IMG/VR virus record: IMGVR_UViG_3300037296_000220 | Location: 38,535 to 102,534 of that record | Length of the DNA stretch: 64,000 nucleotides | DNA from: a virus | Direction: 5' to 3' (one strand) | Part shown: in pieces, positions 26,773 to 59,124 of the stretch | Layout of the letters: every line of letters begins with the position of its first letter | Position numbering within the stretch: the first letter of the stretch is position 1 | Program-made: the position numbers and the translations under genes | The notes under the pieces: generated by a model | Databases searched by the model: none | Told to the model about the DNA's origin: nothing | The model's input: only the letters and a program-made list of their open reading frames with translations

Positions 26773-26789
26773 TCTGGATAACTCCAACT

Positions 26790-27528: not shown

Positions 27529-27544
27529 CAGGGCTCGGATTAGT

Positions 27545-31676: not shown

Positions 31677-31703
31677 AATATACCACACTTAGTTGTTTGT
31701 TTG
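31677..31703 (-). promoter_or_regulatory. Composite late promoter with leader element, copy 7
   Basis: Read leftward: CAAACAAACAACTAAG, then TGTGG, TATATT (31677-31682) and CGCCG. It includes an extended -10 (TGG before TATATT) and lies before the lysis cassette. Confidence 0.7.
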
Positions 31704-31707
31704 ATAT

Positions 31708-31736
31708 ACCCGCACAGCAAAAACTGGCGGGTTTTT
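31708..31736. terminator. Hairpin between tail and lysis units
   Basis: ACCCGCACAG and CTGGCGGGT form a stem with a short A-rich loop. A T tract follows on the plus strand; on the minus strand TATATC follows. It may end leftward tail transcription weakly, or act on the plus strand. Confidence 0.45.
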
Positions 31737-31764
31737 CTATTTCCGATAATGAGAATTACAGGAA

Positions 31765-32052
31765 TTAAGAGGGGTCTTTGGGCACCAAGTCCCAATAATG
31801 ATGCGGCAACTGTCTGCGACGCTTCTCTGCGATGTAACTGCCCTCGCAGTGCTTCACGGTTCGCCCTGTAGCGTCCTGAGACGTGTCCCAGAAGAACAGG
31901 GTGTCAATGATATTGCGCATGACTGCCCAGCGCTTGTAGCGCTTCCCAAGTCGATAGGTAGCTGCACTCAAGGTTTCATCGGCGTAACCCAGCAGCAAAG
32001 CGGCCAGAACCTGATCAATAGCGATCAGTGTGGCCCATATTCGTTTTTTCAT
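31765..32052 (-). CDS. Small hypothetical protein with N-terminal hydrophobic helix
   Basis: From ATG 32052 (GAG upstream) the 95-residue protein has a hydrophobic segment at about residues 5-22 and a C-terminal HCEGSY...PHHYW pattern that resembles small conserved phage proteins of unknown role. It follows the tail-fibre chaperone gene with a GTGA-type overlap. No function is assigned. Confidence 0.6.
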   Translation of the reverse strand: MKKRIWATLIAIDQVLAALLLGYADETLSAATYRLGKRYKRWAVMRNIIDTLFFWDTSQDATGRTVKHCEGSYIAEKRRRQLPHHYWDLVPKDPS

Positions 32053-32057
32053 TAGCG

Positions 32058-32822
32058 TCACTCTATGGCTTTTAAGGAAGTGATGTCGCCGGCTTCATAG
32101 GCCGCCCACACCAGGTCTACCTTGTGCTGCCGAAGTCCTTCAATGGAAGCGGCAGCGGTTCGGTATTCATTTGCTCGATACAACACCCGCTGCGCCAGTT
32201 CATCAAGGGGAATACCGCGACTGGCAGAAAGTACGGACAACACCGGCAGTTCAACCGGGTCCGTCAGCGGGTTCTCAATCACCAGTTTGGCCTCCCTTTC
32301 CTGGTCTGCCCAGGTCAGTTTGGCAAAGTCTGGATAATCCGCTGTGAGGGCTGAAACCGCTATGGAAGCCTGCTCTTTCAAGCTGAGTATCTTCGCATCT
32401 CTAACGGCGGTCAGGTGTTGTGCGGCGTCAATCTTGCCAAGTTCGGCCATCTCTTCAATGGTCGAGTCGACAATCGTTTGGTTCTCTTCATCCACGTACT
32501 GATTCGTCATCAGCTCAAGCACACCCTCTTGAACCAGGTCAAAGTGCGTTTTGGGTAAGACACTTTCCCCTTGCACTTTCTCCAGTACGGTACCTGGCGG
32601 AAGACCGTCAGAGCCGTCAGAAACAGAGAGGGTTATGAGGCCATCAGCGATCAAGTCCACCAAGGGCCTCATGTCCCAGTTTTCATCAAACCGGCGTATG
32701 TCATCCCCTTGATAGATGCCGCCGGCCAGATCGACGAGCTGATAACCCTCTGTCACAGGGTGGTCATCTGGCACCGAGAGGATTTCCGTAACAATAAAGT
32801 CTTCTACTTTGATCAGTTCCAT
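32058..32822 (-). CDS. Putative tail-fibre assembly chaperone / fibre-associated protein
   Basis: This 254-residue protein directly follows the tail-fibre gene (gap of four bases). Its C-terminal 110 residues (from LTWADQEREAKLVI) match the pattern of fibre-assembly proteins with a WxxQ-start helix and repeated Ala/Glu helices. The N-terminal half is unassigned. It may help fold or trimerise the fibre. The assignment depends mainly on position and the helical pattern. Confidence 0.5.
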   Translation of the reverse strand: MELIKVEDFIVTEILSVPDDHPVTEGYQLVDLAGGIYQGDDIRRFDENWDMRPLVDLIADGLITLSVSDGSDGLPPGTVLEKVQGESVLPKTHFDLVQEGVLELMTNQYVDEENQTIVDSTIEEMAELGKIDAAQHLTAVRDAKILSLKEQASIAVSALTADYPDFAKLTWADQEREAKLVIENPLTDPVELPVLSVLSASRGIPLDELAQRVLYRANEYRTAAASIEGLRQHKVDLVWAAYEAGDITSLKAIE

Positions 32823-32826
32823 GCGA

Positions 32827-35800
32827 TTAGCTCACCTTTACCCATACTCGAATAGTTCTGTTTCGGGGCCTCGTTTCGGACCCACCCTCGTAGGCTGTGT
32901 AGGCAGTGCCACCACTAGGGGATCTGTTTTCTAGGGCCCCCGGGCTGCTCCCTCCATTTGCAGTTCTCAGAGAGTGACGGTGACTTCTCAATTCATCACC
33001 TTGAATCCCTGCTCCAAAACTCGATGCTCCACTACCAGGTGTGCGGAAAAAGATGCCCTCATTATCAAAGATGGCTGACCAGCTACCTCCAAACAGTGAT
33101 GCGGGAGTCGAGCGCCCCGGGAATTGGATATAGGTCATGCCCACCGGGATAATCTCTCGGCCGGCAACTCTCGGCATGTTGATGAACTCATTGGCGCCAC
33201 CAAACCGAGTGCCGTTTGATTCCGTAAAGGCGATACCCAGATAGTTGCTGAAATCACTAGGTTCGATTGAGCCCGATAGGTAGATCGATGAAGACCAACC
33301 AAAGAAGTCCCAATGAGAGTGACTGTATGTCCCTAAAATTAAAGAGCTGCGGGTTGCCTGAAAGATGTACCCGCTCTGACTAGCTATTAACTGACCAATC
33401 AGTCCATAGCAACCAATCATGACGACTGTGGCATCTTGGGAGTAAATTGCTCTCAACCTTTCCAGTCTGATATGGCAATCGACCAAAAACAGGGTGTCAT
33501 TATTGTTCGAGCTAGACAGATCCAGTGTACTCTCCCCTCCCGACAGAGAAGACCTGATACCAACCAATTCACAACCTGACGCATAAAGCGTGTCGCCTGT
33601 AGAAGCTGTGGAGACGTTGTACCCAACGCTCAAACTGGCTATGTTCAACTTGGCACCAAAGGCACTTATCACACTGTAGGCCGGGTTGTTCGACTTGATC
33701 GTGCAGACAAAGCGTGGCGATGAGGCTCCGTTGCGTATCGTCATTGCTGGAGCGTTGTCGTTATCATTGCTGATGTTGACGCTGCCCTGTAGCGTAATTC
33801 TGGAGTAGTCACCACTGAGCGTCACCGGGTCCAGCTGGGTGAAGTTCATTGCGATTATGTTGACTTCCGCCCCTTGACTCAAAATCAGAGACTGAGCGTA
33901 ATCCAGAGCTTCCATCAATTCGCTGAAATCACCAGTGGGAGTCCCATCACTTAAAGGGTTTTGCAAAGTGAATGAGTAATAGCGACTACCTGTAGCCCTA
34001 CTGGTGCCACTGATGTTCACATCGACAAAGTTACCTTCTTGTACCTCGAACCCTTTCAGCTCGAAAATGTCATCCCCTGGAATCACCCTGAAAGACTTGG
34101 TGGCGTTACCAATGTGCAAGCCTGGCTTGGTGCCATCAAAGCCCATGTACCAGCCATTGGTGACACTGTTCAGCGTCGTCTTCCCTGCCCCAATACCACC
34201 TTTGGTGATTACGGTGCTGGCCTCCAACTTGTCCTTGGTTAGGTCAGCGGTAGTACGCCAGGCACTGAACTTGTAAATGCGAAGCTCAAAGGTGTCCGGG
34301 TGTATCCAGATGCTGCCGTCTTCGGGGTTAAAAGGTGCTGCAGTCTGGCGATAGATGCTGTTTTTGGTGGCGCCGGCGGCTACGGTGTTGAGCTTCAGTG
34401 TCAGAGCATTGATGCCTGGGAAGTCGTCGGCTAGCATGACAAAGGGTCTGGCCATTTGCTGCGACAGAACATCGTGAGGCGGGGTCTCGTTGTAGTAGTG
34501 GTAGACGCGCTGCTGCTGGAGGGTCTGTCCAGCACGCTGACGGAACTCTCTGATGTTTTGAACCATTTGGCCATCTGACACTCGATAGATGCCAGCTAGC
34601 CCAGTATCCCCACCGTCATACCCTTCAGGGTGAACTACCCCAATCATCAAGTACCAATCACCATTAGTGGGCAAGTCTCCCGACCAGAAATAGGGGTTTG
34701 AATCGACTGAACCGCCCAGGCTTTCAGTGTATGAGGTGCCGCAACCAATATAGGATGAGCCGTCATAGTCGAACCTCTTCATGTAGACGCCGTGTATGTA
34801 AGTTTTGGCCGGGTCTACCGTAAAAGCATCCGTATTCCAGCCGCCGTCGGCGTCGTCGGCGCTGTTGGGGTAGCACTCCCAGAGGGTGTCTACGGTCTCG
34901 AAAGGTCCAAGGCCGACTGCGATACGGTTCTCTGTTGCATTCCCATTGCGGTTAAACCCTGGCTGGGTGCCGGTTGAGCCAACCACCCACGCATTAGGGT
35001 TCAGCAGGTTCCCGGAGCCACCGATTTTACTCCATGAGTAAGCCGCCGGGTTGGTCGATTCGGTAGATGAAGCCTTATTGTAGGCCAAGCCGATATACTT
35101 GCGGGCGCCCGGGTCTCCGTTGGTGAAGTTTAGTGTACCTGTTGGGCTGTCCGCATAGGCCAACCAGGTGTATAAACTTTCACCATTTGGGCCTACAGAC
35201 CCTTGAATACCCTGCGGCCCTTGAGATCCAGTTGGGCCTTGTGGCCCAGTATCCCCGGTCGCACCCTTTATTAAAGACCATGAGTAGTCAGCCGGGTTCG
35301 TAGACTCAGTTGATGAGGTTTTATTGTAAGCCAAGCCAATATAGGTGCGCGTACCTGGCGCCCCATTGGTGAATGATGATGTCCCAGTGCTGTTGTTGGC
35401 GTAAGCGACCCAGGTGTAGAGAGATTGCCCGGTTGAACCTGTTGGCCCCTGAACACCCTGCGGGCCTTGAACGCCCTGTTGCCCTGTTGCCCCTTGAGGA
35501 CCATCTTTGGCCAACGGAGCCCAGCCGGTAGACTTGTAGACCCGGGATTGCTTGAGTGTGGTGTCGTAGTAGAACCAGTTTACCTGGGGTGACGCTGGGG
35601 CTGTCGCCAACTCGCCCTGCCAGACCAAGGCGTGCTCGTTCAGGATTGCGTCATCAGCAGGCTTGTCCGACAAGTTGCTCCAGCCGGTAGATCCCGCACC
35701 GATCGTCAACTTCCCGCTCAGCTCGATGTTGCGCAGCTTCAGGGTGTTGTTTTCATAGTAGAGGTCGGCATTGTCAGTATCCGGGTTCACGATCTCGAAC

Positions 35801-36951
35801 CGATCGGCAATCATCGAGAAGGTGCCGGTCGTGCCGTCGTTCTGCTGAACAATACCAGTCACGCGCCCGTTCACGTCCAGGGTCACGCTGTTGATAGCGT
35901 TGATCTTGGTGCCCTGCTGATCAACGGTGGAACTCAGTGAGTTGACGGTGGTGATCAATCCAACGTTCGACCCGCCGTCACCGGCAACTGTCAAGGTTAG
36001 GGTGTCAACCTGGGAGACCAAACCTGTTGAGGTTCCATCCCCATTCAGTATGAGATTAACATTGCTGACTGCTGTATTGGTCCCAATTAGAGACTGGCTT
36101 TGCGAGCTGACGCTGCCCAATAGTTGGGTTGTTAAATCTGAAAGCGTCTGATTGTCATTCGACAGAGTTGTTATGGACTGTTGAATGTTCGCAATGGAAC
36201 CATTTGTGGACGCTTCAAAGGTGTCGATGCGCGAGGTTAGCTGACTATCGGCAGTTTCCAGGGCAATCACTTTCTGACTGTAGGCGTTAGAAAGAGCGCT
36301 CAAGTCATTAGTGATGACCGTGACGGAGTCGTTCAGCGCCGTCTGATCTAGCTCATATCCCCCACCGACATTCAGAAAAGCGTCAACCTGGCTCTGTACA
36401 GCACTGGCTGCGTTACTGGCTGCTGTGGCGGCATCGTTGGCGGCCGTGACCGCATCCGAAATAGTGGGCAACTGACCAAAATCATCCTCAAGCTGAGTCA
36501 GCTCAGCCCGGAACCCGTCGACGATGTCCTGTAAGGCCGAAGGTGAAGTGTACAGTTCGACAACCCCGAACCGGTCGGTCATGGGGTACTTGCCGTCGCT
36601 GTTTGGTCCACCGTCAGGCGTCCCGTTCAACCAGTCGCGAAACTCATTCAGACTGGTTTGGCGACCCACCAGAAACTCTTCGATCTTTTCGACCACCGAT
36701 ACCGTAATCGACTCAGGCTGTGGCGAGCGAATGATGAAGTAGTCCAGGGTTGCGTCCGCATCCGTCCAGGCTGTGTGCAGTAGGATGGTGCTTGCATCAA
36801 CAACGTTGTCCAGGTGAAACAGCTTCAAAGAGCCGGCTTCTACCGCAACCAGGTCGCCCGGGTGTGCATTAGTGACGAAGTCAGCCCCAGTCGCTGTCGC
36901 GTACTGTTGACCCTGAACAAAAGACAACTGACCAAACTGATACCAACTCAT
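32827..36951 (-). CDS. Tail fibre with collagen-like repeats and collar-type tip
   Basis: The 1374-residue fibre starts with a virion-binding segment (MSWYQFGQLSFVQG). A coiled-coil/beta region and two collagen-like Gly-x-y blocks (coded near 35410-35510 and 35180-35270) alternate with a duplicated 60-residue unit (SLYTWVAYA / SLYTWLAYA). A beta-helix-like region follows. The C-terminal tip has PVGMTYIQFPG, GIFFRTPG and SHRHS, typical of tail-collar/fibre tips. It should bind the host surface. The composite late promoter at 36979-37005 lies 28 bases upstream. Confidence 0.87.
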   Translation of the reverse strand: MSWYQFGQLSFVQGQQYATATGADFVTNAHPGDLVAVEAGSLKLFHLDNVVDASTILLHTAWTDADATLDYFIIRSPQPESITVSVVEKIEEFLVGRQTSLNEFRDWLNGTPDGGPNSDGKYPMTDRFGVVELYTSPSALQDIVDGFRAELTQLEDDFGQLPTISDAVTAANDAATAASNAASAVQSQVDAFLNVGGGYELDQTALNDSVTVITNDLSALSNAYSQKVIALETADSQLTSRIDTFEASTNGSIANIQQSITTLSNDNQTLSDLTTQLLGSVSSQSQSLIGTNTAVSNVNLILNGDGTSTGLVSQVDTLTLTVAGDGGSNVGLITTVNSLSSTVDQQGTKINAINSVTLDVNGRVTGIVQQNDGTTGTFSMIADRFEIVNPDTDNADLYYENNTLKLRNIELSGKLTIGAGSTGWSNLSDKPADDAILNEHALVWQGELATAPASPQVNWFYYDTTLKQSRVYKSTGWAPLAKDGPQGATGQQGVQGPQGVQGPTGSTGQSLYTWVAYANNSTGTSSFTNGAPGTRTYIGLAYNKTSSTESTNPADYSWSLIKGATGDTGPQGPTGSQGPQGIQGSVGPNGESLYTWLAYADSPTGTLNFTNGDPGARKYIGLAYNKASSTESTNPAAYSWSKIGGSGNLLNPNAWVVGSTGTQPGFNRNGNATENRIAVGLGPFETVDTLWECYPNSADDADGGWNTDAFTVDPAKTYIHGVYMKRFDYDGSSYIGCGTSYTESLGGSVDSNPYFWSGDLPTNGDWYLMIGVVHPEGYDGGDTGLAGIYRVSDGQMVQNIREFRQRAGQTLQQQRVYHYYNETPPHDVLSQQMARPFVMLADDFPGINALTLKLNTVAAGATKNSIYRQTAAPFNPEDGSIWIHPDTFELRIYKFSAWRTTADLTKDKLEASTVITKGGIGAGKTTLNSVTNGWYMGFDGTKPGLHIGNATKSFRVIPGDDIFELKGFEVQEGNFVDVNISGTSRATGSRYYSFTLQNPLSDGTPTGDFSELMEALDYAQSLILSQGAEVNIIAMNFTQLDPVTLSGDYSRITLQGSVNISNDNDNAPAMTIRNGASSPRFVCTIKSNNPAYSVISAFGAKLNIASLSVGYNVSTASTGDTLYASGCELVGIRSSLSGGESTLDLSSSNNNDTLFLVDCHIRLERLRAIYSQDATVVMIGCYGLIGQLIASQSGYIFQATRSSLILGTYSHSHWDFFGWSSSIYLSGSIEPSDFSNYLGIAFTESNGTRFGGANEFINMPRVAGREIIPVGMTYIQFPGRSTPASLFGGSWSAIFDNEGIFFRTPGSGASSFGAGIQGDELRSHRHSLRTANGGSSPGALENRSPSGGTAYTAYEGGSETRPRNRTIRVWVKVS

Positions 36952-36978
36952 GAACTGCTCCCGATTCTGATGGCGCCG

Positions 36979-37005
36979 ATTATACCAAACTTAGTTGTTT
37001 GTGTG
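36979..37005 (-). promoter_or_regulatory. Composite late promoter with leader element, copy 8
   Basis: Read leftward: CACACAAACAACTAAG, TTTGG, TATAAT (36979-36984) and CGG. The element begins directly after the stop codon of the tip-protein gene and precedes the tail-fibre gene. Confidence 0.72.
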
Positions 37006-40000
37006 TTATCTCATCGCGGCAATACCCATGATCGTCATGGGGGAATTGTCCAATACAAACTGTGGAGAAGCGCCCAAATCATCTAGCAACATTCGGAACT
37101 GATACTGGGTGTACCCAGAGCTTAATGACATACCAAAACTGAAATTGTGAACGAAATCGGAGGGCTTGTAGGTGTAGATCGTCCCGCCGCCGGCTTGGTA
37201 TTGGTAGTCGTCAGAATACCACTCTCGGGTGTTCACCGTCGACCATCCGCTCCAAGAAACGCCATTATTGCGTCGCCACTGCAGCCTTGCTCTAAACCAG
37301 CCTCCAGCAGTCATGTTAACCATGACGATGACACCGCTCTCGTTAGTCGCGGACCCCGTTTCAAAGGTGATAACTGCTGTATTTGTTCCGATTGTGGACG
37401 TTTTTTCAAACTGCGAAATTGACCCGCTTTCAATTTTGTCTACCGTGATGGCGCCCGTCTCTACCGAATCAGCCTTGACCGCCCCAACAGTTAAAGCGTT
37501 AGCCGTAATGTTGCCCCGGGCTGTCAGGTTGTTGATCTCGACTGAACCCGTCGCAGCGTCTAGTTTGAAGCCAGCGACACCAGAGTCAAAGTTCATGCTG
37601 CGCACTTCGGACTGGATGACCGCGTTGATCATTCGAACCTCACCCGACTCAGTGTCCACGCCAAATACCGGGACAGTTGCGCCCTGGGCTGAGGTGCCAT
37701 CCTTGGAGACCAGAAAGCTATCGGCTGCGATGATGAACTGGCTGGTCACTTCGTCATACTCGTTCAGTTCGGACATCAGCCCAAAGCCGCTGAACACGCC
37801 ATTGTTGTTGATGCTGACGAAGTGCTGTGCTTTAACGCCGTCCACCACTTCACTGATGGTGTTCAGACTGGTTGTATTTTGACCACTGGTTGTCTCAAGG
37901 GTGGTGACGCGCCCCGCAATTGAAGTTTGATCATCGGCCAAGGTCAGGATTTGATCGGTTGCGGTGGCGATGTTCCCATCAATTTCGCTTCTCTGGTCGG
38001 CCACGGTGTTTATTGTGAAGTCACGCAGCACCTGCTCGTCTACCAGGGAGTCGGCCACCGTAGTGCTCAGTTCATTGATCGACTGCGCCAGGGTGGTGTT
38101 GCCCACATCGCTCAGCAAGGAGCCAGACAGCATCGAGTGCGTGATGCCCACAGGGAACAATGACTCAAAGTCTGCTGCGCCGGCTGTCTGGAAGGTGATC
38201 TTCACCAGGTCGGACGCGACATCGGGCTGGAGTCGGTTCAGCTCGCGTATCCACAACGAGTAGTTAGTCTCCGCCACCAGGCCAGCAATGAATGCCCGGG
38301 TCGACGCCAGAGTTGATTTAAGCTGCACAGAGGGGTCTGTGAACTCCGTTGCAAGGCCAGGGGCCATCCATATCTCAAACACGCCCTGACCGCCCCGTGC
38401 GACGATTGATCCCTCTTCCCGCTTGGTTGGCTTCCACACCAGGTCAACGCTGTTGTCACGCGGTGTGGCAACTACGTCAATGGGTGCTGTGGGCGCCACT
38501 GGCTTCACACCGGCCACAATGTGCTGATACAGGGTCGCTTCACCCAGAGACGGACGACGCTCATAGGCATCGATCGGCAGAATCTTCACCTTAACCAGAT
38601 CGCTCGGCTGCACTTCCATCGAGTAGGACTTGGGGTGCTGCCCCATGTAGGCGAAGCCTTCGTCGTTCACGTTCACCCAGACTTCGGACGACTTGTAGCC
38701 CGGGTCGACCACTTCCCAACTGAACGACAAAATGGTGACGACGGCATCCGCGACTGACTGAGGTGCTTCGGTAAAGCCGTTCCAGCCCACGTTCACAATG
38801 CGGCTGGGGGTCGGTGAGTAGTCCTGAATGTCAGTGATCAGGGTTGCGTCAAAGACCGTCTCGTCGTACTCCAGGGCCGTCACGGTGCGGAAGTGATCGT
38901 TCTTGATACCGATGTCACGGATGACGAACGGTTTGGCTTCACGCCCCTGCTTACCCGCAATCCAGGGTGTGTATTCATCGGGCACACGGCTGAACGGCTG
39001 AGTTAGGGTCAGAGTGTCGGTCATGCCGGGAGCGTTGGCGATCGCCCGGGTCTCGACCACGTCGGTGTCGAACAGGTCCAGCAGGTCCCCTATCAGGACG
39101 CCAGAGGCATCACGCAGCACAACCCCCTGCCCTGTCCCGTCTGACCAGGTTTGCTCCACTTCATAGTCGGTGCCGTTGGCCTGGCTCACCGCGCGCTGTA
39201 TCTGCTCGTAGGTGGCTACGCTGAAAGCGCCCAGGTAGACGATGTCACCATTGACCCCTGTCACCTCAAAGGTTTGCAGGTAGTCAGAGGAAAACTTGAC
39301 CAGCACGCTGTCGATGGCTTCACTGATCTCAATCTCTTTGTCGAGCACCAGGGTATTTGCGTCACTACCTTCCGCTGACAGGCCGCCCTGAGACCACTGT
39401 GGCATGTCGTGCTGAATCAGTATCTTGTCGCCTACCTGACAGGCCAGAGCCTCTACAGAGGTCTCGAACGTGACCGTCTGGCTGAGCTTGTTCATGTTCA
39501 GCGCCAGGGTGCCCGCCTTCACGGCCTGGTCGCGGTTGTCTACGCCGCGCAGCTTCAGCTCAGTCGAGCGCACCTTCAGGCGAGACTTGTCGATGGTGGG
39601 GTCGTTGAAAACCTTGTCGCGCAGGGTGACCATGGCTTCCTTGTTGAAGTTGTCCTTGTCGTAATAGACCACCTTCACTTCGTTGGAGCGATCGGAGACC
39701 GTTGTCCAGTTGGTACCCAGGCTGCCCGAGACAATGCTGGCCACGTTGAACATCATGGAAGCCGGCTTACTGCTCTCAATCGACACAGAGATCGTTGTGC
39801 CCGTGTAGAGCTGTATTGCTTGCCCAGTCTGAAAGACAGCTTTAACAGCGTCCCAGGCGTTCTTACGCCCGTCTATGACCCCGTTGAACTTCAAAGCATT
39901 GTCGTCGCAGAACTGAGCCCACTTCAGAAAAGCGGATAGGTGCATCTTGGAATCAGGTCTGCCCGGGCCGTAGCGATCATTGGTCAGTATGTCATACGCA

Positions 40001-41436: not shown

Positions 41437-41797
41437 AAAACCCTACTGTGCGATGCTTCCAGCGGCCCAGGTCGTCCAAGATGACGCCCCCTGAAGCCTC
41501 CCAGGTATGAAGAAAATCGGTGCCGTTCAGGCAGAACCCGACGTGACTGGCAACCCCGGCGATCTTCAGCAGCACAACGCTGCCCAAGCGCGGCTCGGGT
41601 ATGGACTGCCAGCGGCCCAAGCTCAAATTCATCATGGTTGAGATAATCTTGGCGTTCTCAGACCAGGGCTCACTCTGGATCTCGATGCCCAGGCGACGGT
41701 GCATTTCCATCACCAAGCCGTAACAATCCAGGCTATCGCTACCTGGCCGTGCCCCGTAACGAAACGGGGTGCCGATCAGGTCTTCAAACTCAACCAC
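41414..41797 (-). CDS. NlpC/P60 tail peptidase (lambda gpK-like)
   Basis: The 127-residue product contains the NlpC/P60 Cys (SLDCYGLV) and His (ASHVGFCL), and lies between gpL- and gpJ-like genes, as gpK does in lambda. The peptidase may open peptidoglycan during entry or process tip proteins. I place the start at a GTG at 41797, overlapping the end of the gpL-like gene by eight bases. A longer reading frame from 41881 would run inside that gene. Confidence 0.82.
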   Translation of the reverse strand: MVEFEDLIGTPFRYGARPGSDSLDCYGLVMEMHRRLGIEIQSEPWSENAKIISTMMNLSLGRWQSIPEPRLGSVVLLKIAGVASHVGFCLNGTDFLHTWEASGGVILDDLGRWKHRTVGFYEYKRQD

Positions 41798-42416
41798 GGA
41801 CGATGATGCCTGGCATGCCGCCGTAGTTGCCCTCGTTGTCGTGTGCTCGGCATCCATTGGCGCCGGCCAGCGACAGGTCACAGGTGGGCATGGCCCCGCT
41901 GTAGCCGCAGTTTTGTGACTTGTAGATGAAGGAGCAGACGTTCTTCAGGGCGACCCGGGCAGGCACGTTTTGGTTTAGTGGGTTGTCAACGCCCAGCTCC
42001 CAGGTGACGACATAGTCTTTCACCGATGAATTGGTGATGGCGAAGTCATCCGACAGCTCCACTTCGCTGGTCAGAGCGTCTTTGTCCGGGCCTGTGACCA
42101 CCAGAACTTTGACGTTCGAGCCCGTGCCACCCTTGTAGGTCTGCAGGTAGCTCTGCACCATCTGCAACTGGTCCTGGATCGAAATGTTCACGCTCGGCGT
42201 CGAGTCGGACCTTTTGTCGATCTGGATCTCGAACGGCAATGCCTGGTAGGCCTCGCCATCAATGGTCACGTCTTCATCGTTCTGCACAAACCGCAGGGTG
42301 TCGATGAACGACTGGGTCGCTTCATCCCAGACCTCGATCTGCAAGGCAAACAAGAACGGCTGATCTGAGTGCAGCTTGTTCTTTTCGATAACGGTCAATA
42401 GGCTGAGATTATTCAT
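41790..42416 (-). CDS. Minor tail protein L-like (possible Fe-S cluster)
   Basis: The 208-residue protein ends with four Cys residues in the gpL pattern (VCSFIYK, NCGYSG, PTCDLS, NGCRAH). In lambda gpL these coordinate an iron-sulfur cluster at the tail tip. Gene order L-K-J matches lambda. The start ATG is directly preceded by the leader element, whose AAGTG serves as a ribosome site. Confidence 0.85.
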   Translation of the reverse strand: MNNLSLLTVIEKNKLHSDQPFLFALQIEVWDEATQSFIDTLRFVQNDEDVTIDGEAYQALPFEIQIDKRSDSTPSVNISIQDQLQMVQSYLQTYKGGTGSNVKVLVVTGPDKDALTSEVELSDDFAITNSSVKDYVVTWELGVDNPLNQNVPARVALKNVCSFIYKSQNCGYSGAMPTCDLSLAGANGCRAHDNEGNYGGMPGIIVRG

Positions 42417-42426
42417 AATTCACACT

Positions 42427-42440
42427 TAGTAGTTTGTGTG
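42427..42440 (-). promoter_or_regulatory. Repeated leader element, copy 9
   Basis: Read leftward this is CACACAAACTACTA, followed by AGTGTGAATT and the ATG of the gpL-like gene. It begins three bases after the stop codon of the gpM-like gene. Confidence 0.7.
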
Positions 42441-42442
42441 TA

Positions 42443-46927: not shown

Positions 46928-46938
46928 GATCTCTTCTC

Positions 46939-46964
46939 CAAAAAGAGGCGGCCGAAGCCGCCTT
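46939..46964 (-). terminator. Rho-independent terminator after the tail tube gene
   Basis: Read leftward, AAGGCGGCTTCGGCCGCCTC is followed by TTTTT. It separates the highly expressed tube gene from the chaperones and lies just downstream of leader element copy 10. Confidence 0.8.
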
Positions 46965-46970
46965 CTCACT

Positions 46971-46984
46971 TAGTTGTTTGTTTG
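46971..46984 (-). promoter_or_regulatory. Repeated leader element, copy 10
   Basis: Read leftward this is CAAACAAACAACTA, starting directly after the stop codon of the tail tube gene. No -10 box is near and a terminator follows, so here the element is not an obvious promoter. Confidence 0.65.
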
Positions 46985-47545: not shown

Positions 47546-47554
47546 TGCTTACTC

Positions 47555-48695: not shown

Positions 48696-48716
48696 GACAC
48701 CTCCAGAGTTGGCCCG

Positions 48717-48743
48717 ATTATAACAAACTTAGTTGTTTGTGTA
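48717..48743 (-). promoter_or_regulatory. Composite late promoter with leader element, copy 11
   Basis: Read leftward: ACACAAACAACTAAG, TTTGT, TATAAT (48717-48722) and CGGGC. It starts just after the stop codon of the preceding gene and drives the connector and tail genes. Confidence 0.7.
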
Positions 48744-48745
48744 TA

Positions 48746-49450
48746 TTACAAGTCCACGAAGGCGAAGCTGTTCGGATGAAAGTACACCGACTCCAGATCC
48801 TGATACTCAGACAGATCAAACTCCCGACCGTGAAAGCGATGCCCGGGTCGATCAATGCGCCCTTGCGACTGCCCCAGCTTTAACCAGGTGGCTGTCCGGA
48901 CAACGTTGACGATCTCCAGGTAGCCCTGCTGCAAGTGATTGCGAATGTAGTTCTCCGCTTTCAGGCGCCGACCAATACTGTCCATGTGCTCAAACTCGGG
49001 CATGCCAAAGTTTGCGCTGGCCTTCCCGTCCAGATCCGCAAGCTGATACATGCGAAAGTGTTTCAGTACGGTTTGCGCGTCTGACCCAAGCTGATGAATG
49101 ACGTTGTCGAGCAGTCTGTTTGACGCGCTCTCAGCATACGCTTGGACGAACGTTTTCAGCTCAGTAGTGTGTTGGTTTGACTCAGTCCCGGGTGCGCGCT
49201 GTAGTGCGTATGAGAGCGCTTTCTCGAACGCGACCGTCGCAGTGTCCTGTATTTCTTCCTTGATCACCGGGCCGTAGTGACCTAGCGCCCAATGACATTG
49301 TGTCACCAATGGGTTGAACTGGGTCAGCGGCTCGTCATGAACTGTCGCGTTTTGGTAGGCACCGATCAAGGTGTCCTGATACAGAGAGTAATGCTGCAGG
49401 GTTTTGGCCACCTGGGCGCGCAACAGGGCGCGCAATTCATCATTGTTCAT
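48746..49450 (-). CDS. Hypothetical head-region protein, 234 residues
   Basis: The mostly helical protein ends with GQSQGRIDRPGH, then YFHPNSFAFVDL, which resembles the ends of some phage minor head or adaptor proteins. It overlaps the next upstream gene by four bases. Position between capsid and connector genes suggests a virion or assembly role, otherwise unassigned. Confidence 0.55.
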   Translation of the reverse strand: MNNDELRALLRAQVAKTLQHYSLYQDTLIGAYQNATVHDEPLTQFNPLVTQCHWALGHYGPVIKEEIQDTATVAFEKALSYALQRAPGTESNQHTTELKTFVQAYAESASNRLLDNVIHQLGSDAQTVLKHFRMYQLADLDGKASANFGMPEFEHMDSIGRRLKAENYIRNHLQQGYLEIVNVVRTATWLKLGQSQGRIDRPGHRFHGREFDLSEYQDLESVYFHPNSFAFVDL

Positions 49451-50310
49451 CGAGACACCTTTGCGGTCCAGTTGACCAAGCCTTTCATGGCGTCCATCGT
49501 TTTGCGGCTGACGGGCAGTGCCACCGGCTTTGAGGTTTGAAAGAAGTGCGTACTTTCACCGGCAGAATGTGACAAAAGTCCCGCTTTGCGTCGCTCTTCA
49601 ATTGGGTCGCCACCCAGCAGGTAGTTGGCCTCGATCAACGTGGCCAGCATCAGTTGTTTGCGAACCCGCTCGGTTAACATGCCCAACTCCGCCAGGTCCA
49701 GATCGTTGGTAGTGCTCACGATGTTGTCCGGGGTTGCCTGAATGTTGACCCGAACCAGGCCAATGTTGTCGTAGGCGTTCATGATCGCTGTGCGGAAGGT
49801 TGACAGGTCTGTGCTCAGATACTGACCCAGTGCCGGCAAATCCAGGCGGCGTTGAGCCAGCTTGATCAGGTCATCCTCAACCGCAAAGCTGTCCACGCCG
49901 GGTGTCAGGCCTTCCGGCTCAAAGTAAAGAACTTGGCGCTGCAGGTAGCTCTCGCCCTCTTCGTCAAAATTCAGGTCGAAGGTTGAGACCGAGTCGGCAC
50001 TGCCTCCGTTGGGCAGGTATGCGATTGCCTTACCTTCTTTGATGATCAGGTGATATTGCTCGCCGAAGCTCAGAAACACATCGACCAGAACAACCGTTGT
50101 GTCAGGGTATGTCAGGGTTATGACCGCTTTGTCACTGCCTTCAAACCCGCTGGGGATTGAGCCCTGAGCAAAGACATTACTTAACCAATTGATTGCCTGA
50201 CCAAAGGCGAAGGTGGCAAAGGGGGTGGTCAGTTCGGCATCCGTCCCGACTGGGTAAGTCAGGCCATAGAGCAAACTGGTCTTTTCGGGTGTTCCAGCCG
50301 GGATGATCAT
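49447..50310 (-). CDS. Hypothetical head-region protein, 287 residues
   Basis: The N-terminal half is beta-rich (VITLTYPDTTVVLVDVFLSF, in parts) and the C-terminal half helical. No family is recognised. The start at 50310 uses AAGTGAGA, partly supplied by leader element copy 12. It may be a virion adaptor or connector because it lies between the surface-protein genes and the connectors. Confidence 0.55.
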   Translation of the reverse strand: MIIPAGTPEKTSLLYGLTYPVGTDAELTTPFATFAFGQAINWLSNVFAQGSIPSGFEGSDKAVITLTYPDTTVVLVDVFLSFGEQYHLIIKEGKAIAYLPNGGSADSVSTFDLNFDEEGESYLQRQVLYFEPEGLTPGVDSFAVEDDLIKLAQRRLDLPALGQYLSTDLSTFRTAIMNAYDNIGLVRVNIQATPDNIVSTTNDLDLAELGMLTERVRKQLMLATLIEANYLLGGDPIEERRKAGLLSHSAGESTHFFQTSKPVALPVSRKTMDAMKGLVNWTAKVSR

Positions 50311-50321
50311 AGATTCTCACT

Positions 50322-50335
50322 TAGTTGTCAGTGTG
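50322..50335 (-). promoter_or_regulatory. Repeated leader element, copy 12
   Basis: Read leftward this is CACACTGACAACTA, preceded by GGTACATTCGG (a possible -10) and followed at once by the ribosome site of the 50310 gene. Confidence 0.6.
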
Positions 50336-50368
50336 CCGAATGTACCGCAATTTGGCACGAAACTCCAG

Positions 50369-50391
50369 AAAAAGGGGCCGTAGCCCCTCCC
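50369..50391 (-). terminator. Rho-independent terminator after the Ig/esterase gene
   Basis: Read leftward, AGGGGCTACGGCCCCT is followed by TTTTC, three bases after the stop codon of the large surface-protein gene. Confidence 0.8.
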
Positions 50392-50393
50392 TT

Positions 50394-53969: not shown

Positions 53970-53972
53970 CGA

Positions 53973-54356
53973 TTACACTCCCGACTCTGTCAGAGTTATT
54001 GAGGCTGCCTGGGTTGGGTGCAAAACCGTGCCCGGGCCTGAGTCGTTACCTGCTGTTGGGAGAGCTGGGAAGGTGCCCGGGAACAGAGGGTCGTTATCGA
54101 CCGTGTCGTAATAGATATTCCCACCATTGATACCGGTGGCGCCCTGGTTGCCATAAAAATTCAGATAGCCCCCACCAGGCTGCGCATTGGACTCACCAAT
54201 GTTTGCGGGCAACTGGTTTTCAAAAGCCAGTTCAAAAAATTTTACGGCACCTTCGGCGCGGGTCCCGCTAACCAATGCTGGGTTCGTGCTAATTAGCGGG
54301 TTATTCGCTTTGCGAATGCCCTGAATCAGACTGAGATTTAATGCTGGGACTGCCAT
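53973..54356 (-). CDS. Hypothetical 127-residue protein beside the Ig-like genes
   Basis: The Gly/Asn/Pro-rich sequence (QPGGGYLNFYGNQGATGINGGN, in parts) looks like a small beta structural protein. It is three bases from the surface-protein gene on one side and two bases from the PKD gene on the other, so they form one unit. A head attachment or decoration part is possible; no family was recognised. Confidence 0.55.
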   Translation of the reverse strand: MAVPALNLSLIQGIRKANNPLISTNPALVSGTRAEGAVKFFELAFENQLPANIGESNAQPGGGYLNFYGNQGATGINGGNIYYDTVDNDPLFPGTFPALPTAGNDSGPGTVLHPTQAASITLTESGV

Positions 54357-54358
54357 TG

Positions 54359-55123
54359 TTATGCCTCTACGGTCATGTTTGAGAAGGTGAAGGTTTCAAC
54401 AACAGTAGGAATCCGAACCGTAAATCCAGAGAAGATGAATGACTCGACCAGAGTGGGTTCAGGTTCAACAACGTCATCAATGACGGCCAGCAGCTTGGTT
54501 TGGGTCGCTGTCAATTCCCCGTCGGAGACGGTCAGTGTCACGCTGTAGTTGCCGGCTGTGGCGTAGGTGTAAGTCACCTGAGCACCTTCGGCGGACGCAC
54601 CATTGCCAAAGGTCCAGATGTAGCTCAGGGCATCCCCATCCGGGTCACTCGACGCAGACGCATCTAAATCGACGCTCAGGCCGTCCAGAATCTGTGTGTA
54701 GCTCGCGACAGGGGGATTGTTCACTGTGACGACAGACACGCTCAGGGACGCTGTCAGAGCGCTTGCGTTGCCCGCCCTGTCAACTGCCTGGGCTGAGACT
54801 TCATAGTCGCCCGTCGGCAGGTTCAGATCGTTCAACTCGAAGGAGCCAGTCAGGCCGCTTCGTACCGGTGCACCATCGACATAGAGCGTCCAGACAGCGG
54901 TCGCATCGTCGATGGTTGGGATAAGGAGTGAGCCAACCAGGGTCAGCTCAATGGTGGGGGCTACGGTGTCCGTCAGGTCGATACGCACCGTGGTGATGAC
55001 ACCAGTGGCGTTGCGCTTAGACAGGCTCAGGACATCCGGCAGAATGAAATTTCCATCGATGTCTTTAAGGTCAAATTCAATGATGACCGGTTCGCCAGGC
55101 TTCCGTTTGATCACCCCCGACAT
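54359..55123 (-). CDS. PKD/Ig-domain virion protein
   Basis: The 254-residue protein has an N-terminal Ig-like domain (about 1-125). A PKD domain follows (NPPVASYT, DPDGDALSYIWTFGNG, YSVTLTVSDG; about 130-215). A C-terminal tail contains the related motifs VESFIFSGFTV and VETFTFSNMTV. PKD domains occur on capsids as adhesion or decoration modules. Its gene follows the gene after the capsid gene, so it is a candidate head-decoration protein. Confidence 0.7.
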   Translation of the reverse strand: MSGVIKRKPGEPVIIEFDLKDIDGNFILPDVLSLSKRNATGVITTVRIDLTDTVAPTIELTLVGSLLIPTIDDATAVWTLYVDGAPVRSGLTGSFELNDLNLPTGDYEVSAQAVDRAGNASALTASLSVSVVTVNNPPVASYTQILDGLSVDLDASASSDPDGDALSYIWTFGNGASAEGAQVTYTYATAGNYSVTLTVSDGELTATQTKLLAVIDDVVEPEPTLVESFIFSGFTVRIPTVVETFTFSNMTVEA

Positions 55124-55124
55124 G

Positions 55125-55565
55125 TTAGCTGCCCCGCTTTGCTTTCAAGGCCAGCAGACCGTCGATGATGCCAACGATCGAGGTGCCCTTGACGCCATAG
55201 GGGGTAGCAAATTCACGCAAAGGTGAAATGCCCTGGTCGGCCAGTTCAGCTAGGGTTTCAGCAGTGAAGTCCCAGGTTAGGCTTTCATCGGTAGGCACTT
55301 TCACTTCAGCCTTTTTCTTGCCGGTCGCCTTGACCGCCTTACCTTCGATGGACTTGTTGCGAGATTTCAGCTCGCGAGTACCGGCGCCGCCCTGCTCGCT
55401 GGAGCCGTCGGTATTGAGCACTTCAATTTGTACGATCGCACCAATCTGCTCAACTTCCCGGGAGGTCAGTTCGTCAACGGAGACGCCTTCTACAAATTGG
55501 TGAACGCCGAAAAAGCCGGTCAGGTTCATCCATCCTTTGCTCAGTAATTTGATCTTGTTAGCCAT
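55125..55565 (-). CDS. Hypothetical head protein next to the major capsid gene
   Basis: The 146-residue protein has an acidic N-terminal part, a Lys-rich middle (KGKKKAEVKV-like, about residues 72-90) and a helical end. It is the first gene downstream of the major capsid protein and is separated from it by a strong terminator. Small decoration or head-completion proteins often occupy this spot; no motif confirms it. Confidence 0.55.
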   Translation of the reverse strand: MANKIKLLSKGWMNLTGFFGVHQFVEGVSVDELTSREVEQIGAIVQIEVLNTDGSSEQGGAGTRELKSRNKSIEGKAVKATGKKKAEVKVPTDESLTWDFTAETLAELADQGISPLREFATPYGVKGTSIVGIIDGLLALKAKRGS

Positions 55566-55576
55566 ATAACCCTCTC

Positions 55577-55602
55577 AAACAAAAGGGGCTCGAAGCCCCT
55601 TA
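55577..55602 (-). terminator. Rho-independent terminator after the capsid gene
   Basis: Read leftward, AAGGGGCTTCGAGCCCCTT is followed by TTGTTT. It lies between leader copy 13 and the start of the 55565 gene, and probably caps abundant capsid mRNA. Confidence 0.82.
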
Positions 55603-55629
55603 TAAGTTAACTCACCAAATAATCAATCT

Positions 55630-55643
55630 TAGTTGTTTGTGTG
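55630..55643 (-). promoter_or_regulatory. Repeated leader element, copy 13
   Basis: Read leftward this is CACACAAACAACTA, beginning four bases after the capsid-gene stop codon and preceded by AATT as in copies 1 and 6. A terminator follows. Confidence 0.7.
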
Positions 55644-55645
55644 AA

Positions 55646-56551
55646 TTAGACGTTAGTAATACCGTACAGAGCAGCCAGGGACTGAGTGCTCTTCAGTGCA
55701 ACACTCCAGTAGGCCTTGAGGCGTGTACGGGTGGCATCTTTATTTTGGACGGTGCCCAGGTCTTCGACGATGATGCCGGCAGATTCGCCACCGTAGATGC
55801 CGTGCAGACCGTCTACTTCGTTCAGGCGAACGGCGTAGATGGAGCAGGTGTCGTCAGCAGTACCCTGAGCGACATCACCTTCGATGAAGTCGTTGATCAG
55901 GATGGGCACGCCGTCGAACGCCGGGACCGAGAAACCGAAGTCTTCGATCATGAAACGTTCGGCAGTGTTACCGCCGGCTGCGCGCAGCAATTGCTTGAGC
56001 GCACGGTAGGTGCCGCGACGCATGACGTAAGCGTCAACGCCATTAGGGACCATGTCTTTCAGTTCGTCGAGCATGTCCATGGACAGAGCCATGCCGTTTG
56101 CACCCGCTTCCAGACGCTGACCGGTGTCGCGCACCAGCTTGTCGATGCCGTCGAAAGACTTGGCGTTGGCAGAAGAGTCACCCTGGACCAGCGCACGCTT
56201 GAACGCACGACCCATACCCTTCGCCTTCATCGCCAACTGAATGGCTTTCTGGTCATTGGTGTCAGACTCAGTACCTTGCAGGAACTTGTCGACATCAACG
56301 TCACCAGCGATGATCCGCAGGCGAGTAGTGATTTCTTCCGCCTGAGAGGCTTCTTCCGGAATGGTGTCGTTCGGGTCAAGGAACACGCCTTCAGACACAA
56401 CGCTTTCGCGGTTGTAGACGTAGGCCTTGCCGTCGGTACGCTGGAACGGCAGGAAGGCGAACAGGTCATCACGGTCGATGATCTCTTCGACGACGCCGCG
56501 CTGCAGGTCGTTGTTGCTGAGGTTATCAGCGATGGTTTTCAGTAATGGCAT
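55646..56551 (-). CDS. Major capsid protein (HK97 fold likely)
   Basis: The start ATG at 56551 has AGGAG seven bases upstream. The 301-residue protein has an N-terminal arm, an E-loop-like segment (FQRTDGKAYVYNRES), a long spine-like helix region and a C-terminal part with DATRTRLKAYWSVALKS. This pattern, size and position after portal and scaffold genes suit the capsid protein. A palindrome TGTCAATTGACA lies just upstream (56563-56574). Confidence 0.85.
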   Translation of the reverse strand: MPLLKTIADNLSNNDLQRGVVEEIIDRDDLFAFLPFQRTDGKAYVYNRESVVSEGVFLDPNDTIPEEASQAEEITTRLRIIAGDVDVDKFLQGTESDTNDQKAIQLAMKAKGMGRAFKRALVQGDSSANAKSFDGIDKLVRDTGQRLEAGANGMALSMDMLDELKDMVPNGVDAYVMRRGTYRALKQLLRAAGGNTAERFMIEDFGFSVPAFDGVPILINDFIEGDVAQGTADDTCSIYAVRLNEVDGLHGIYGGESAGIIVEDLGTVQNKDATRTRLKAYWSVALKSTQSLAALYGITNV

Positions 56552-56593
56552 TACCTTACTCCTGTCAATTGACAATTGCTTTGCACAAAGGGG

Positions 56594-57460
56594 TTACTTC
56601 TTCGCGTTCAGGGCGCCCAAAATTCGGGAATGCCCGCGAACTTCTTGCTTGTCCAGATCCGGGGTCTTCAGGTCTTCAGTGGTGCGACTGCCCGGGCCTG
56701 GTTTCATCTTGCTTTTAAGCAGTGACTTGCTTTCTGGGTGCTTCGCATACAGCTCTCCAATCGCTGCATCGAAACTCAATGGCTTGCCCTCTGCGTCCAC
56801 CAGGGGTGTTCGATCGGCGGCGCCCGCTGGCTTGTCATAAGCGACAACGCCGCTATCAGACCGCTCAAAGTGACCCAGGAACAGATTTCGAGCGATGCTC
56901 AACGGAATGGCGCTCTCTTTCGAAATGAACTCGGAGTCGCTGAATGAGCGCCCGATGGTCAGTTCTTCCAGTTGCGCGTTGGCTGCGGCCAGTTGCTCTT
57001 TTAAAGTGCCAACTTCGGTAGTCAGTTCTGTCGTGGCGGCTTCGGCTCGGGTCTTCATCTGCTCAACGATTCGGTCGTATTCGCCTTTGCGCTCCAGGTC
57101 TTGTCGTTCACGGTCAGCGCGAGCTTGTTCCAACTGCTCTACTGACTCGACGCCCAATTCCTTCAGAGTGCTGGACAGGCCAGACTGGAGCGATTCGAGC
57201 GTCTTGTTCAATTCAGCCAGTTGGCTGTCGCGAGCTTGCAGATCAGCTTTCAGCTTGGCTTCGGCAGCTTTAGCTTTGTCCGGGTCTGCTGCAGCGGCGG
57301 CTTTGGCGGCTGCAGCGTCTGCTGCGACTGCTTTGTCTGCTGCGGCTTTGTCTGCTGCGGCTTTGTCTGCTGCGGCTTTGTCAGCTTCAGAAGGCTCTTC
57401 ACGAACGAACATCGGCTGAGTTTGTTCAATGCGGTACAAAAAAGGTTCTGCTTTAGACAC
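56594..57460 (-). CDS. Capsid scaffolding protein
   Basis: A GTG start at 57460 with GGAG eight bases upstream is chosen. The 288-residue product has an Ala/Lys/Asp repeat block (KAAADKAAADKA near residues 28-45) and a long coiled coil to about 170. A basic C-terminus includes GPGSRTTED, the usual scaffold layout. It lies between portal and capsid genes. No separate maturation protease gene is visible. Confidence 0.82.
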   Translation of the reverse strand: MSKAEPFLYRIEQTQPMFVREEPSEADKAAADKAAADKAAADKAVAADAAAAKAAAAADPDKAKAAEAKLKADLQARDSQLAELNKTLESLQSGLSSTLKELGVESVEQLEQARADRERQDLERKGEYDRIVEQMKTRAEAATTELTTEVGTLKEQLAAANAQLEELTIGRSFSDSEFISKESAIPLSIARNLFLGHFERSDSGVVAYDKPAGAADRTPLVDAEGKPLSFDAAIGELYAKHPESKSLLKSKMKPGPGSRTTEDLKTPDLDKQEVRGHSRILGALNAKK

Positions 57461-57474
57461 GTTGGTCACTCCAA

Positions 57475-59070
57475 TCAGTTTTTCTGGTCAGCTTCCCGAC
57501 CCTTGGTTTTAGACTGCTTATCGCCAGAACTTTCGCGATTGCGCTTGGCCTCTTCGAGAACCCGGGATTTCTGATCCGGGCTGCCTTCCGTCAGAGCTGC
57601 GGCCGCCTCTTTGGCTTCTTTCACGGCGGCGGTAATCCCCTTCTCCATTTCACTGCGCAACTTTTTGCCCAGGCTTGGCCAGAGCTTGTCAACGACAGAC
57701 ATGGATTGGCGGGTCATCACCTCTTCAGGCATGGCCATGAGGCTCAGTCGCATCGATACATCGAACTCGTCCCACAGGTCGCGGGTTGAGAACTCATGCG
57801 GGTACTTGACAATGTCAGTCCGGGTCGCCCAGTCGGTGTCGCCCGAATACAGGCAGACCACGTTGGCGATTCGGTTTTCCAGGGTTTCCAGGGCATCCGC
57901 CCGGCTGCTCAGCAACGCGGTGACGCGCTCAAAGTCTTTGGACTTGGCGGCGCCACTGGAGTTGTCGATACCCTTGGAGTTGTCCTGCTTGGTGCGCTCA
58001 CCTGCCAGGCCAACGGTGTGATAAATTTCATTGATGATCTTCTCGATCACCGACACGATCAGTGATGCCTGGCGCGGGTCAGGGCTCAGAAACTCAGGCT
58101 TGACACCCTTCTCTCCGTCGAACAGGAACAGGCGCTTGGTGCCAGCGTTCAGTAACGCTTCCTCTTCGGTAGAGCCTGGCAGGATGCCCTGAGCGGGCAT
58201 GGCCAGTTGCGAGAAGGTCTGGTCCTGAATGATCGCGTCCAGGTTGGACAGGTAGTTCGCAACGGCCCGATCAAGGTACGCAATGTCATTGATCAGCGAG
58301 GGTACGTTGTGGGGCTCGCGAGACAGGGTGTGATCTGCCCGAATGACCGGCACCACGCCCAGGTCGTGAGCACCCTGCTCTACCAACTCGACCTTGAGCT
58401 GACTGCGGGCCCGGGTGTTTATCGAGCTGTGATTGCCTTTTGTCAGCTCGATCAAAAACCACTCTGTGCGCGTCCAAAGCCGGTAGCGGTCCTTGATGAC
58501 GATCTCGGTCGCAAATGGGTCGGAGTCGTCACGATACTCTTCGTAAATCAGAATCCAGTTCAGATTGCCGTGTTCATCCCAGCTCATGTCCAGAACGCGA
58601 GTCGGCGGCACGACGTACATGTAAATACCGCCAGCGGCTTCCTCTTCGTCTTTCACGGACGCGTTCTCGGGCAGCTTTTTACTGTTGTCGATCACAACCC
58701 AGGGGCAACCAAACGTGGATGACTTGGTGCTGACGATCCGCATCATTTCAGTCATGTCGATGCCGCGGCTGTCGGTGCTTGACCAGAATTTCTGCAACGC
58801 TTGTGGGGCATCGTCAGCGCGAGTTGGGTGCTGAACGAATTGGTATTTGGTCACCAGGTCAACCACTTCACGGGTGTGGTTGAATCGATAAGCTCGATCT
58901 TTACGGTCACAAAACTCGCCATCACCCTCTTTGAAATACTTGTGCAAATGACGGTCGAAATAGGCACGACCACCCCGGTAGGAGTCCTCAAGGAACTCCC
59001 AGTGGGTTTTCATGGCTTCGTAAAGCGGATGTCTGCGCCGAACAATGGCGCTGAGCTGTTTAATATCCAT
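57475..59070 (-). CDS. Portal protein
   Basis: The 531-residue protein has the portal pattern: EFLEDSYRGG, a middle segment IDNSKKLPENAS, and NDIAYLDRAVANYLSNLD. A helical crown region with Gln/Lys-rich C-terminus follows. It forms the dodecameric DNA channel. It lies between terminase large subunit and scaffold genes. The composite late promoter is at 59098-59124. Confidence 0.85.
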   Translation of the reverse strand: MDIKQLSAIVRRRHPLYEAMKTHWEFLEDSYRGGRAYFDRHLHKYFKEGDGEFCDRKDRAYRFNHTREVVDLVTKYQFVQHPTRADDAPQALQKFWSSTDSRGIDMTEMMRIVSTKSSTFGCPWVVIDNSKKLPENASVKDEEEAAGGIYMYVVPPTRVLDMSWDEHGNLNWILIYEEYRDDSDPFATEIVIKDRYRLWTRTEWFLIELTKGNHSSINTRARSQLKVELVEQGAHDLGVVPVIRADHTLSREPHNVPSLINDIAYLDRAVANYLSNLDAIIQDQTFSQLAMPAQGILPGSTEEEALLNAGTKRLFLFDGEKGVKPEFLSPDPRQASLIVSVIEKIINEIYHTVGLAGERTKQDNSKGIDNSSGAAKSKDFERVTALLSSRADALETLENRIANVVCLYSGDTDWATRTDIVKYPHEFSTRDLWDEFDVSMRLSLMAMPEEVMTRQSMSVVDKLWPSLGKKLRSEMEKGITAAVKEAKEAAAALTEGSPDQKSRVLEEAKRNRESSGDKQSKTKGREADQKN

Positions 59071-59097
59071 AACGACCGTCTACTGGCAGATGGGCCG

Positions 59098-59124
59098 AAT
59101 ATACCACACTTAGTTGTTTGTTTG
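59098..59124 (-). promoter_or_regulatory. Composite late promoter with leader element, copy 14
   Basis: Read leftward: CAAACAAACAACTAAG, TGTGG, TATATT (59098-59103) and CGGCC. It lies between terminase and portal genes and resembles copy 7 closely. Confidence 0.72.

Follow-up and report, generated by a model that had tools for sequence, protein, structure and literature searches.

Composite promoters in the window

The stretch of DNA analysed here (the window) comprises 64,000 nucleotides, bases 38535-102534 of the 102,534 bases of the virus record IMGVR_UViG_3300037296_000220. Positions are those of the window unless the record is named, and genes were called with a simple script. The window belongs to a phage-plasmid of the SSU5/nickie superfamily, as judged from homology to SSU5, nickie and Acinetobacter phage-plasmids and from its plasmid-type genes (RepA, ParA, ParB, a resolvase and a MazE-like antitoxin). 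Our subject is an inverted repeat that recurs at its promoters, and the small XRE-like protein, P0002, that we propose as its binding partner.

A first-pass annotation had described four promoters in which a repeated element is followed by a five-base TKTGK spacer, a -10 hexamer and CG. All four are present, on the minus strand, and head the units that had been named (dyad refers to the inverted repeat described below):

31677-31700, minus strand: lysis unit (M15 endolysin gene 30800-31276); 13-mer of the element 31688-31700, dyad 31684-31700, spacer TGTGG, -10 TATATT 31677-31682
36979-37002, minus strand: tail-fibre gene 32827-36951; 13-mer 36990-37002, dyad 36986-37002, spacer TTTGG, -10 TATAAT 36979-36984
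48717-48740, minus strand: neck/tail unit; 13-mer 48728-48740, dyad 48724-48740, spacer TTTGT, -10 TATAAT 48717-48722
59098-59121, minus strand: portal/capsid unit (portal and major capsid protein); 13-mer 59109-59121, dyad 59105-59121, spacer TGTGG, -10 TATATT 59098-59103

The four copies align without gaps over about 30 bases, the spacer is exactly five bases in each, and CG follows every -10. Two additional composites, at 9943 and, before nrdA, at 37534 of the record, lie outside the window, making six. The sequence TATA[AGT]TCG also occurs six times on the minus strand of the record, every time in a composite. Matches with up to three mismatches number 30 in the window against 13 expected, a count reached by none of 100 shuffles; an origin of the composites by chance is excluded. 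No close relatives of the composite were found in IMG/VR, where three single matches were judged to be chance. The absence of a -35 element holds in that there is no TTGACA, but the bases at 17-bp spacing still match TTGACA at three or four of the six positions.

The element is a dispersed dyad

The 13-mer is part of an imperfect inverted repeat of about 20 bp, CACACAAAC-AACTAA-GTKTGK (element consensus CACACAAACAACTAAGTKTGK). Its bases 1-5 (counted from 0; CAAAC) pair best with bases 12-16 (GTTTG, GTGTG or GTGAG), and the best symmetry axis gives 98 complementary pairs out of 155 (63%) against 61 out of 124 (49%) for the next best. The TKTGK spacer and the TG of the extended -10 are there as described, but together they form the right arm of the repeat and are not a mere spacer.

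Scanning the record, which is 88% coding, with a position weight matrix (PWM) gave 33 accepted sites, 31 intergenic and two within genes. Most of these score 20-37, whereas the single best score in 20 simulated strands of a second-order Markov model was 19.3. No 10-mers of the record are more strongly over-represented than the overlapping ones that make up the element. Conservation is stronger in the left arm, and 30 of 31 sites are oriented with transcription. Beyond the six composites there are about 25 copies, either at early and replication genes or without a following -10; the element is found upstream of cobS/cobT, the DnaB helicase, the single-stranded DNA-binding protein (SSB), nrdA and early small genes. 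Still others follow a stop codon and precede either the next gene or a hairpin that resembles a terminator. Representative sites are as follows:

7768-7784, minus strand: nearly full palindrome CACACAAACAACTATGTTGGTGTG (at 7784), upstream of the gp32-like SSB gene 6780-7706
8464-8480, minus strand: dyad-related site upstream of gene 7798-8445 (PWM scan)
13554-13570, minus strand: dyad-related site 10 nt after TACTAT (class A, see below), upstream of the cobS-like AAA gene 12371-13534
16016-16032, minus strand: dyad upstream of the cobT-like gene 13621-16002 (PWM scan)
26784-26800, minus strand: dyad 10 nt after TATGAT (class A), upstream of the DnaB-like helicase gene 25405-26772
27539-27555, minus strand: dyad-related site upstream of gene 26827-27378 (PWM scan)
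42421-42437, minus strand: dyad between stop and start codons, upstream of the minor tail gene 41790-42416
46965-46981, minus strand: dyad 3 nt past a stop codon, just before a GC-rich hairpin and T-run (terminator-like)
50316-50332, minus strand: dyad upstream of gene 49447-50310 (PWM scan)
55624-55640, minus strand: dyad 5 nt past the major capsid gene, with a terminator-like hairpin downstream
60425-60441, minus strand: nearly full palindrome CACACAAACATGTCTGTGTGTG (at 60441), upstream of the terminase large subunit gene

The dyads therefore lie at late units, at early and replication promoters and in the promoter of the P0002 gene. The annotation's late-promoter class stands as a coordinated set heading late units, each promoter having an extended -10 that is perfect or nearly so, and the element where a -35 would be; it does not stand as regards restriction of the element to late promoters, the dyad being genome-wide and present at early, replication and XRE regulator promoters.

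Two promoter geometries

The promoter-associated sites fall into two arrangements. In class B the dyad is followed by a -10 (TGnTATAWT or TATAGT). This class has six copies, five ahead of portal, neck, fibre, lysis and nrdA and the sixth directed at the 3' end of the P0001 gene; the dyad centre is near -21.5 and the right arm provides the TG of the extended -10. Extended -10 promoters need no -35. In class A the -10 (TATGAT, TATAGT or TACTAT) precedes the element by about 10 nt, which places the dyad over the likely start site. Class A dyads are mostly 8-23 nt ahead of the start codon, and their right arm, GTGAGG, may also serve as a ribosome-binding site. A reading of the element as acting only in the 5' leader or on translation was dropped because class B sites are upstream of the -10 and the symmetry spans the spacer.

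Four class A sites share an upstream CCACAGYN-N21-TATNNT, of which there is no other match in the record, CCACAGY-N22-TATNAT/TATAGT likewise matching at just four places, and the CCACAGY box may be a second regulatory element. Early promoters of this form are located within 12-29 kb of the record (for example at 21080, 22997, 25811 and 29135).

P0002 and its own promoter

The candidate regulator, its promoter and a second helix-turn-helix (HTH) protein are arranged as follows:

16417-16450, plus strand: P0002 promoter; -35 TTGACT 16417-16422, 17-bp spacer, -10 TACTAT 16440-16445
16525-17019, plus strand: P0002, 164 amino acids, XRE-like, proposed as the immunity repressor that binds the dyad; first gene ahead of parA and parB
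Record 8840-9739, plus strand: P0001, 299 amino acids, XRE HTH at residues 172-227 and a weak HTH-like match at 44-67

The genome's own dyad is found upstream of the P0002 gene (CAGATTACTATGTTTG). This copy, CAGAT-TACTAT-GTTTG at 16435-16450 (PWM score 23), is centred on the P0002 -10 and is the proposed site of autorepression. Between a 66-amino-acid gene and this dyad there are three TTTGTGTG-like half-sites (16235-16370), resembling a multi-site control region.

P0002 matches an Acinetobacter regulator by BLASTP (E=3e-9, a single comparison), and a profile of the other five regulators, made without P0002, has P0002 as its only significant match in the record (E=7e-9). Among PDB sequences, a profile search matched a LexA-like HTH (E=3e-5). 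The position of P0002 matches that of the Acinetobacter HTH gene that is divergent from cobT and has dyads in its control region. By homology and by its place beside cobT, P0002 thus has both marks of the cobT-adjacent XRE regulators of SSU5-type phage-plasmids. The fold search returned weak matches only, mostly XRE-like and none at E <= 0.001, and peptide patterns found no relatives of P0002 in IMG/VR. No HTH was seen in the conserved gene of about 70 amino acids between the regulator and cobT, the alignment of which was poor.

The class B composite at record 9943 (minus strand) aims at the 3' end of P0001, which suggests antisense or convergent transcription over that gene.

Related phage-plasmids have their own dyads

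Homologues of P0002 lie beside cobT in SSU5-type phage-plasmids of Acinetobacter, Klebsiella (pJN2-26), E. coli (Cyrano), Rhizobium (RHph_Y2_11 and B1VFA) and Phyllobacterium; pJN2-26, Cyrano, RHph_Y2_11, B1VFA and Phyllobacterium were read in part. Word and dyad counts show dispersed inverted repeats in Acinetobacter, B1VFA, RHph_Y2_11, Phyllobacterium, SSU5, Cyrano and others, with a sequence that differs by relative:

Acinetobacter NZ_CP115646: AGTCAGTACTGACT
Rhizobium B1VFA: TAAGTAAGTGCTTACTTA
RHph_Y2_11 and Phyllobacterium: AATCAATATTGATT

All the regulator-bearing genomes examined have a copy of their own dyad upstream of the regulator gene. This copy reads GGTAAGTGCTTACC in Cyrano and GGTAAGTACTTACC in pJN2-26; Acinetobacter, RHph_Y2_11, B1VFA and Phyllobacterium have variants of the respective dyad, and a further record has half a dyad, at the contig edge. 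In two more long records the dispersed dyads were seen first and the regulator was then found on searching. The unbiased dyad count was empty for pJN2-26, where the repeat showed up solely as the words TACTTACT/GTACTTAC and as the copy at the regulator. There are no dispersed dyads of comparable strength in nickie and BUCTxx99, which are without the regulator and in which RepA and ParA are not annotated.

A -10-like hexamer starting 6-7 nt from the dyad centre is enriched in several relatives (10 of 30 dyads in SSU5 and 11 of 24 in Cyrano, approximate numbers from counts that allow 2-5 mismatches and have no null of their own); RHph_Y2_11 has no -10 peak relative to the dyad centre. Related regulators occur in 932 plasmid records and a related portal in 904, counts from separate searches that were not intersected record by record, and the host spectra are similar. 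The Cyrano regulator, CYRAN_45, is published as a putative master repressor, annotated 'putative repressor', and its transcription in the lysogen is 10-fold over the prophage background (PMC9928086).

Other repeated words were seen in these genomes. There are about eight copies of TGCTGTCAGCGGT words in pJN2-26, possibly replication iterons, and at about 95-104 kb of the nickie record the words AAACGCTTGC/TTGCAAGCGTTT recur (palindrome TAAACGCTTGCAAGCGTTTA). The sequence TATAATCG before the portal gene of virulent nickie was considered as proof of a dyad-independent promoter core and dropped, ZY21 having TATAAACG instead.

SSU5 keeps the dyads without the regulator

In SSU5 the integrase and the regulator are both absent and about 30 dyads are kept. 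The flank of this gap is 98-99% identical to plasmid-state relatives, and Enterobacter pMB2617_2, the one such relative checked, has an integrase and a regulator at the position of the gap. The loss of the regulator consequently looks recent, so decay of the dyads would not be expected. An AlpA-like protein of SSU5 was rejected as a candidate regulator, as it matches the excisionase family phrog_2620. Besides its TAAGTA dyad, SSU5 contains another dispersed inverted repeat, AAACA-N3-TGTTT (AAACAATTTGTTT type), which is present in 14 exact copies.

Because SSU5 was isolated as a phage and keeps its dyads without the regulator, late transcription is unlikely to depend on the regulator as an obligatory activator. 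One would expect a required activator to be retained, whereas a repressor can be lost. This, together with the joint absence of regulator and dyads from nickie and BUCTxx99, favours a reading of the dyads as operators.

A proposed dispersed operator set for an immunity repressor

The dyad, its copy number and positions, the homology of P0002 and the co-occurrence of regulator and dyads are features of the sequences themselves. From these we infer binding, repression and independence of an activator. Taken together, the data suggest, with a probability of roughly 0.7, that the dyads are the dispersed operators of an autoregulated immunity (lysogeny) repressor, which is most likely P0002. A logic like that of P1 C1 with an unrelated operator would be the best explanation, in preference to binding by an obligatory late activator. 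While the plasmid is dormant, P0002 would occupy about 30 operators and block host-sigma70 promoters in the two geometries: at class B promoters binding to the dyad at -21.5 would exclude RNA polymerase, and at class A promoters P0002 would cover the start site about 10 nt after the -10. The dyad on its own -10 would limit synthesis of P0002. On loss of the repressor, host polymerase could use both early and late promoters.

Several observations weigh against this interpretation. Class B spacing is invariant in all six copies, which is commoner for activator sites than for operators, and the fixed spacing with a dyad centre near -21.5 resembles activator-dependent late promoters. The recurrent distance of about 6-9 nt between -10 and dyad centre in several relatives is likewise more usual for activator sites; moreover, the dyad-linked -10s of relatives are without TG and without a clear -35, so these promoters might need help. 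Two accepted sites are inside genes, and no promoter is evident near the dyads at 46981 and 55640. The single-sequence structure model of P0002 is poor (predicted local distance difference test score, pLDDT, 56), and P0001 is a second HTH protein in the record. Finally, lytic growth of SSU5 in the absence of the regulator is taken from its isolation as a phage rather than from a test of this locus.

Some of these points would be accommodated if one dyad-binding protein repressed class A at the start site and activated class B from -21.5, as an early-to-late switch of the kind that some dual regulators of phages provide. Such a protein would account for two geometries with one site, the invariant class B spacing, the -10 at about +7 from the dyad centre in several relatives and a dyad centre close to the -22 of the P1 Lpa sites. 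We regard it as unlikely, however: class B is also found at nrdA (record 37534) and not at late genes only, its -10s are near-consensus extended -10s, SSU5 was isolated as a phage without the regulator, and the regulator is expressed in the lysogen (PMC9928086). The annotation's own proposal of a late-promoter element read by a phage activator or an alternative sigma factor draws on the four of six composites that head late units, the lack of TTGACA and the CG conserved after the -10. The need for an activator nevertheless found no support and this proposal is very unlikely to be right, given the some 25 further copies at early and replication genes or without a following -10, and given that the element is a dyad, present on the regulator's own -10, which tracks an XRE family with one member annotated and expressed as a putative lysogeny repressor.

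It is improbable that the operators are real but bound by P0001 rather than P0002. P0001 matches phage repressor profiles and has a class B site facing its 3' end, and two binding domains could read an asymmetric element, in line with the better conserved left arm and with 30 of 31 sites following transcription; on the other hand, its own promoter has no good element, and searches of phages, plasmids and IMG/VR gave no relatives of P0001, whereas dyads arranged in this way occur throughout the family and go with the regulator beside cobT. The parAB operon directly downstream of P0002 and its dyad could mean that the dyads are scattered sites of a centromere-like kind, bound by ParB (18231-19205) and silencing genes as well, for which KorB on RK2 is a precedent. 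This we consider highly improbable, as the dyads are placed precisely at promoters and, in Cyrano, pJN2-26 and the Rhizobium phages, are at the XRE/cobT locus away from parA.

Two further readings may be mentioned. Some of the promoter-less sites could be stoperators, at which bound repressor blocks elongating polymerase. This would be an addition compatible with P0002 repression and is possible, if doubtful: the dyads at 46981 and 55640 lie just past stop codons and before terminator-like hairpins, and site orientation follows transcription, but the consensus and repressor of L5-type stoperators are different. In a broader and rather unlikely version, one small XRE protein would be a position-dependent master switch that silences early promoters from sites after the -10, licenses late ones from about -20 and stops polymerase at promoter-less sites, with the layout conserved across the superfamily and the operator sequence swapped per lineage to give many immunity groups.

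Comparison with known systems

With a related portal in 904 plasmid records, phage-plasmids of the SSU5 type are common in Klebsiella, E. coli, Enterobacter, Salmonella and Acinetobacter. Our literature searches turned up no account of dispersed operators in this group. If P0002 repression is correct, the immunity specificity of each lineage could be read from sequence and the master repressor would have a name; SSU5 would be a natural repressor-loss variant and the lysis-lysogeny decision of the group would be open to simple reporters.

P1 late promoters, which depend on Lpa, have a repeat centred near -22. The composites resemble them in having a repeat upstream of the -10 and no -35, but here the repeat is also at early and regulator promoters, and the linked regulator is missing in SSU5; the restriction to late genes and the retained regulator that would mark activator-dependent late promoters are thus both lacking. 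In mycobacteriophage L5 and Cluster A the stoperators are asymmetric and mostly away from promoters (PMC6550527, PMC9283540). The sites described here are similar in being numerous, short and dispersed, in lying nearly all along transcription, in their lineage-specific consensus and in the presence of a site upstream of the repressor gene. They differ from the L5 type in that the site is a dyad and many copies abut -10 hexamers, and in having as proposed repressor a small XRE protein from a different family.

A counterpart within the group is CYRAN_45 of Cyrano, an LF82 phage-plasmid. This P0002 homologue occupies the corresponding locus and has a copy of the Cyrano dyad upstream, but the dyad sequence differs and the protein is about 20% identical to P0002. 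Operators of CYRAN_45 are not described in the part of PMC9928086 consulted. By function, the arrangement would be that of P1 C1, in which a phage-plasmid has one repressor that limits its own synthesis and 22 operators dispersed at lytic promoters (PMC8546580). Here, too, there are many copies of one putative operator at promoters genome-wide in a phage-plasmid, with a single proposed repressor and a copy in the repressor's own promoter, as also upstream of the regulator in relatives, consistent with the self-limitation proposed above. The P1 operator, however, is a 17-bp asymmetric sequence, ATTGCTCTAATAAATTT, whereas the element here is an imperfect dyad of unrelated sequence. In addition, control of the late structural promoters runs by way of the activator Lpa in P1, whereas here proposed operators lie on these promoters themselves.

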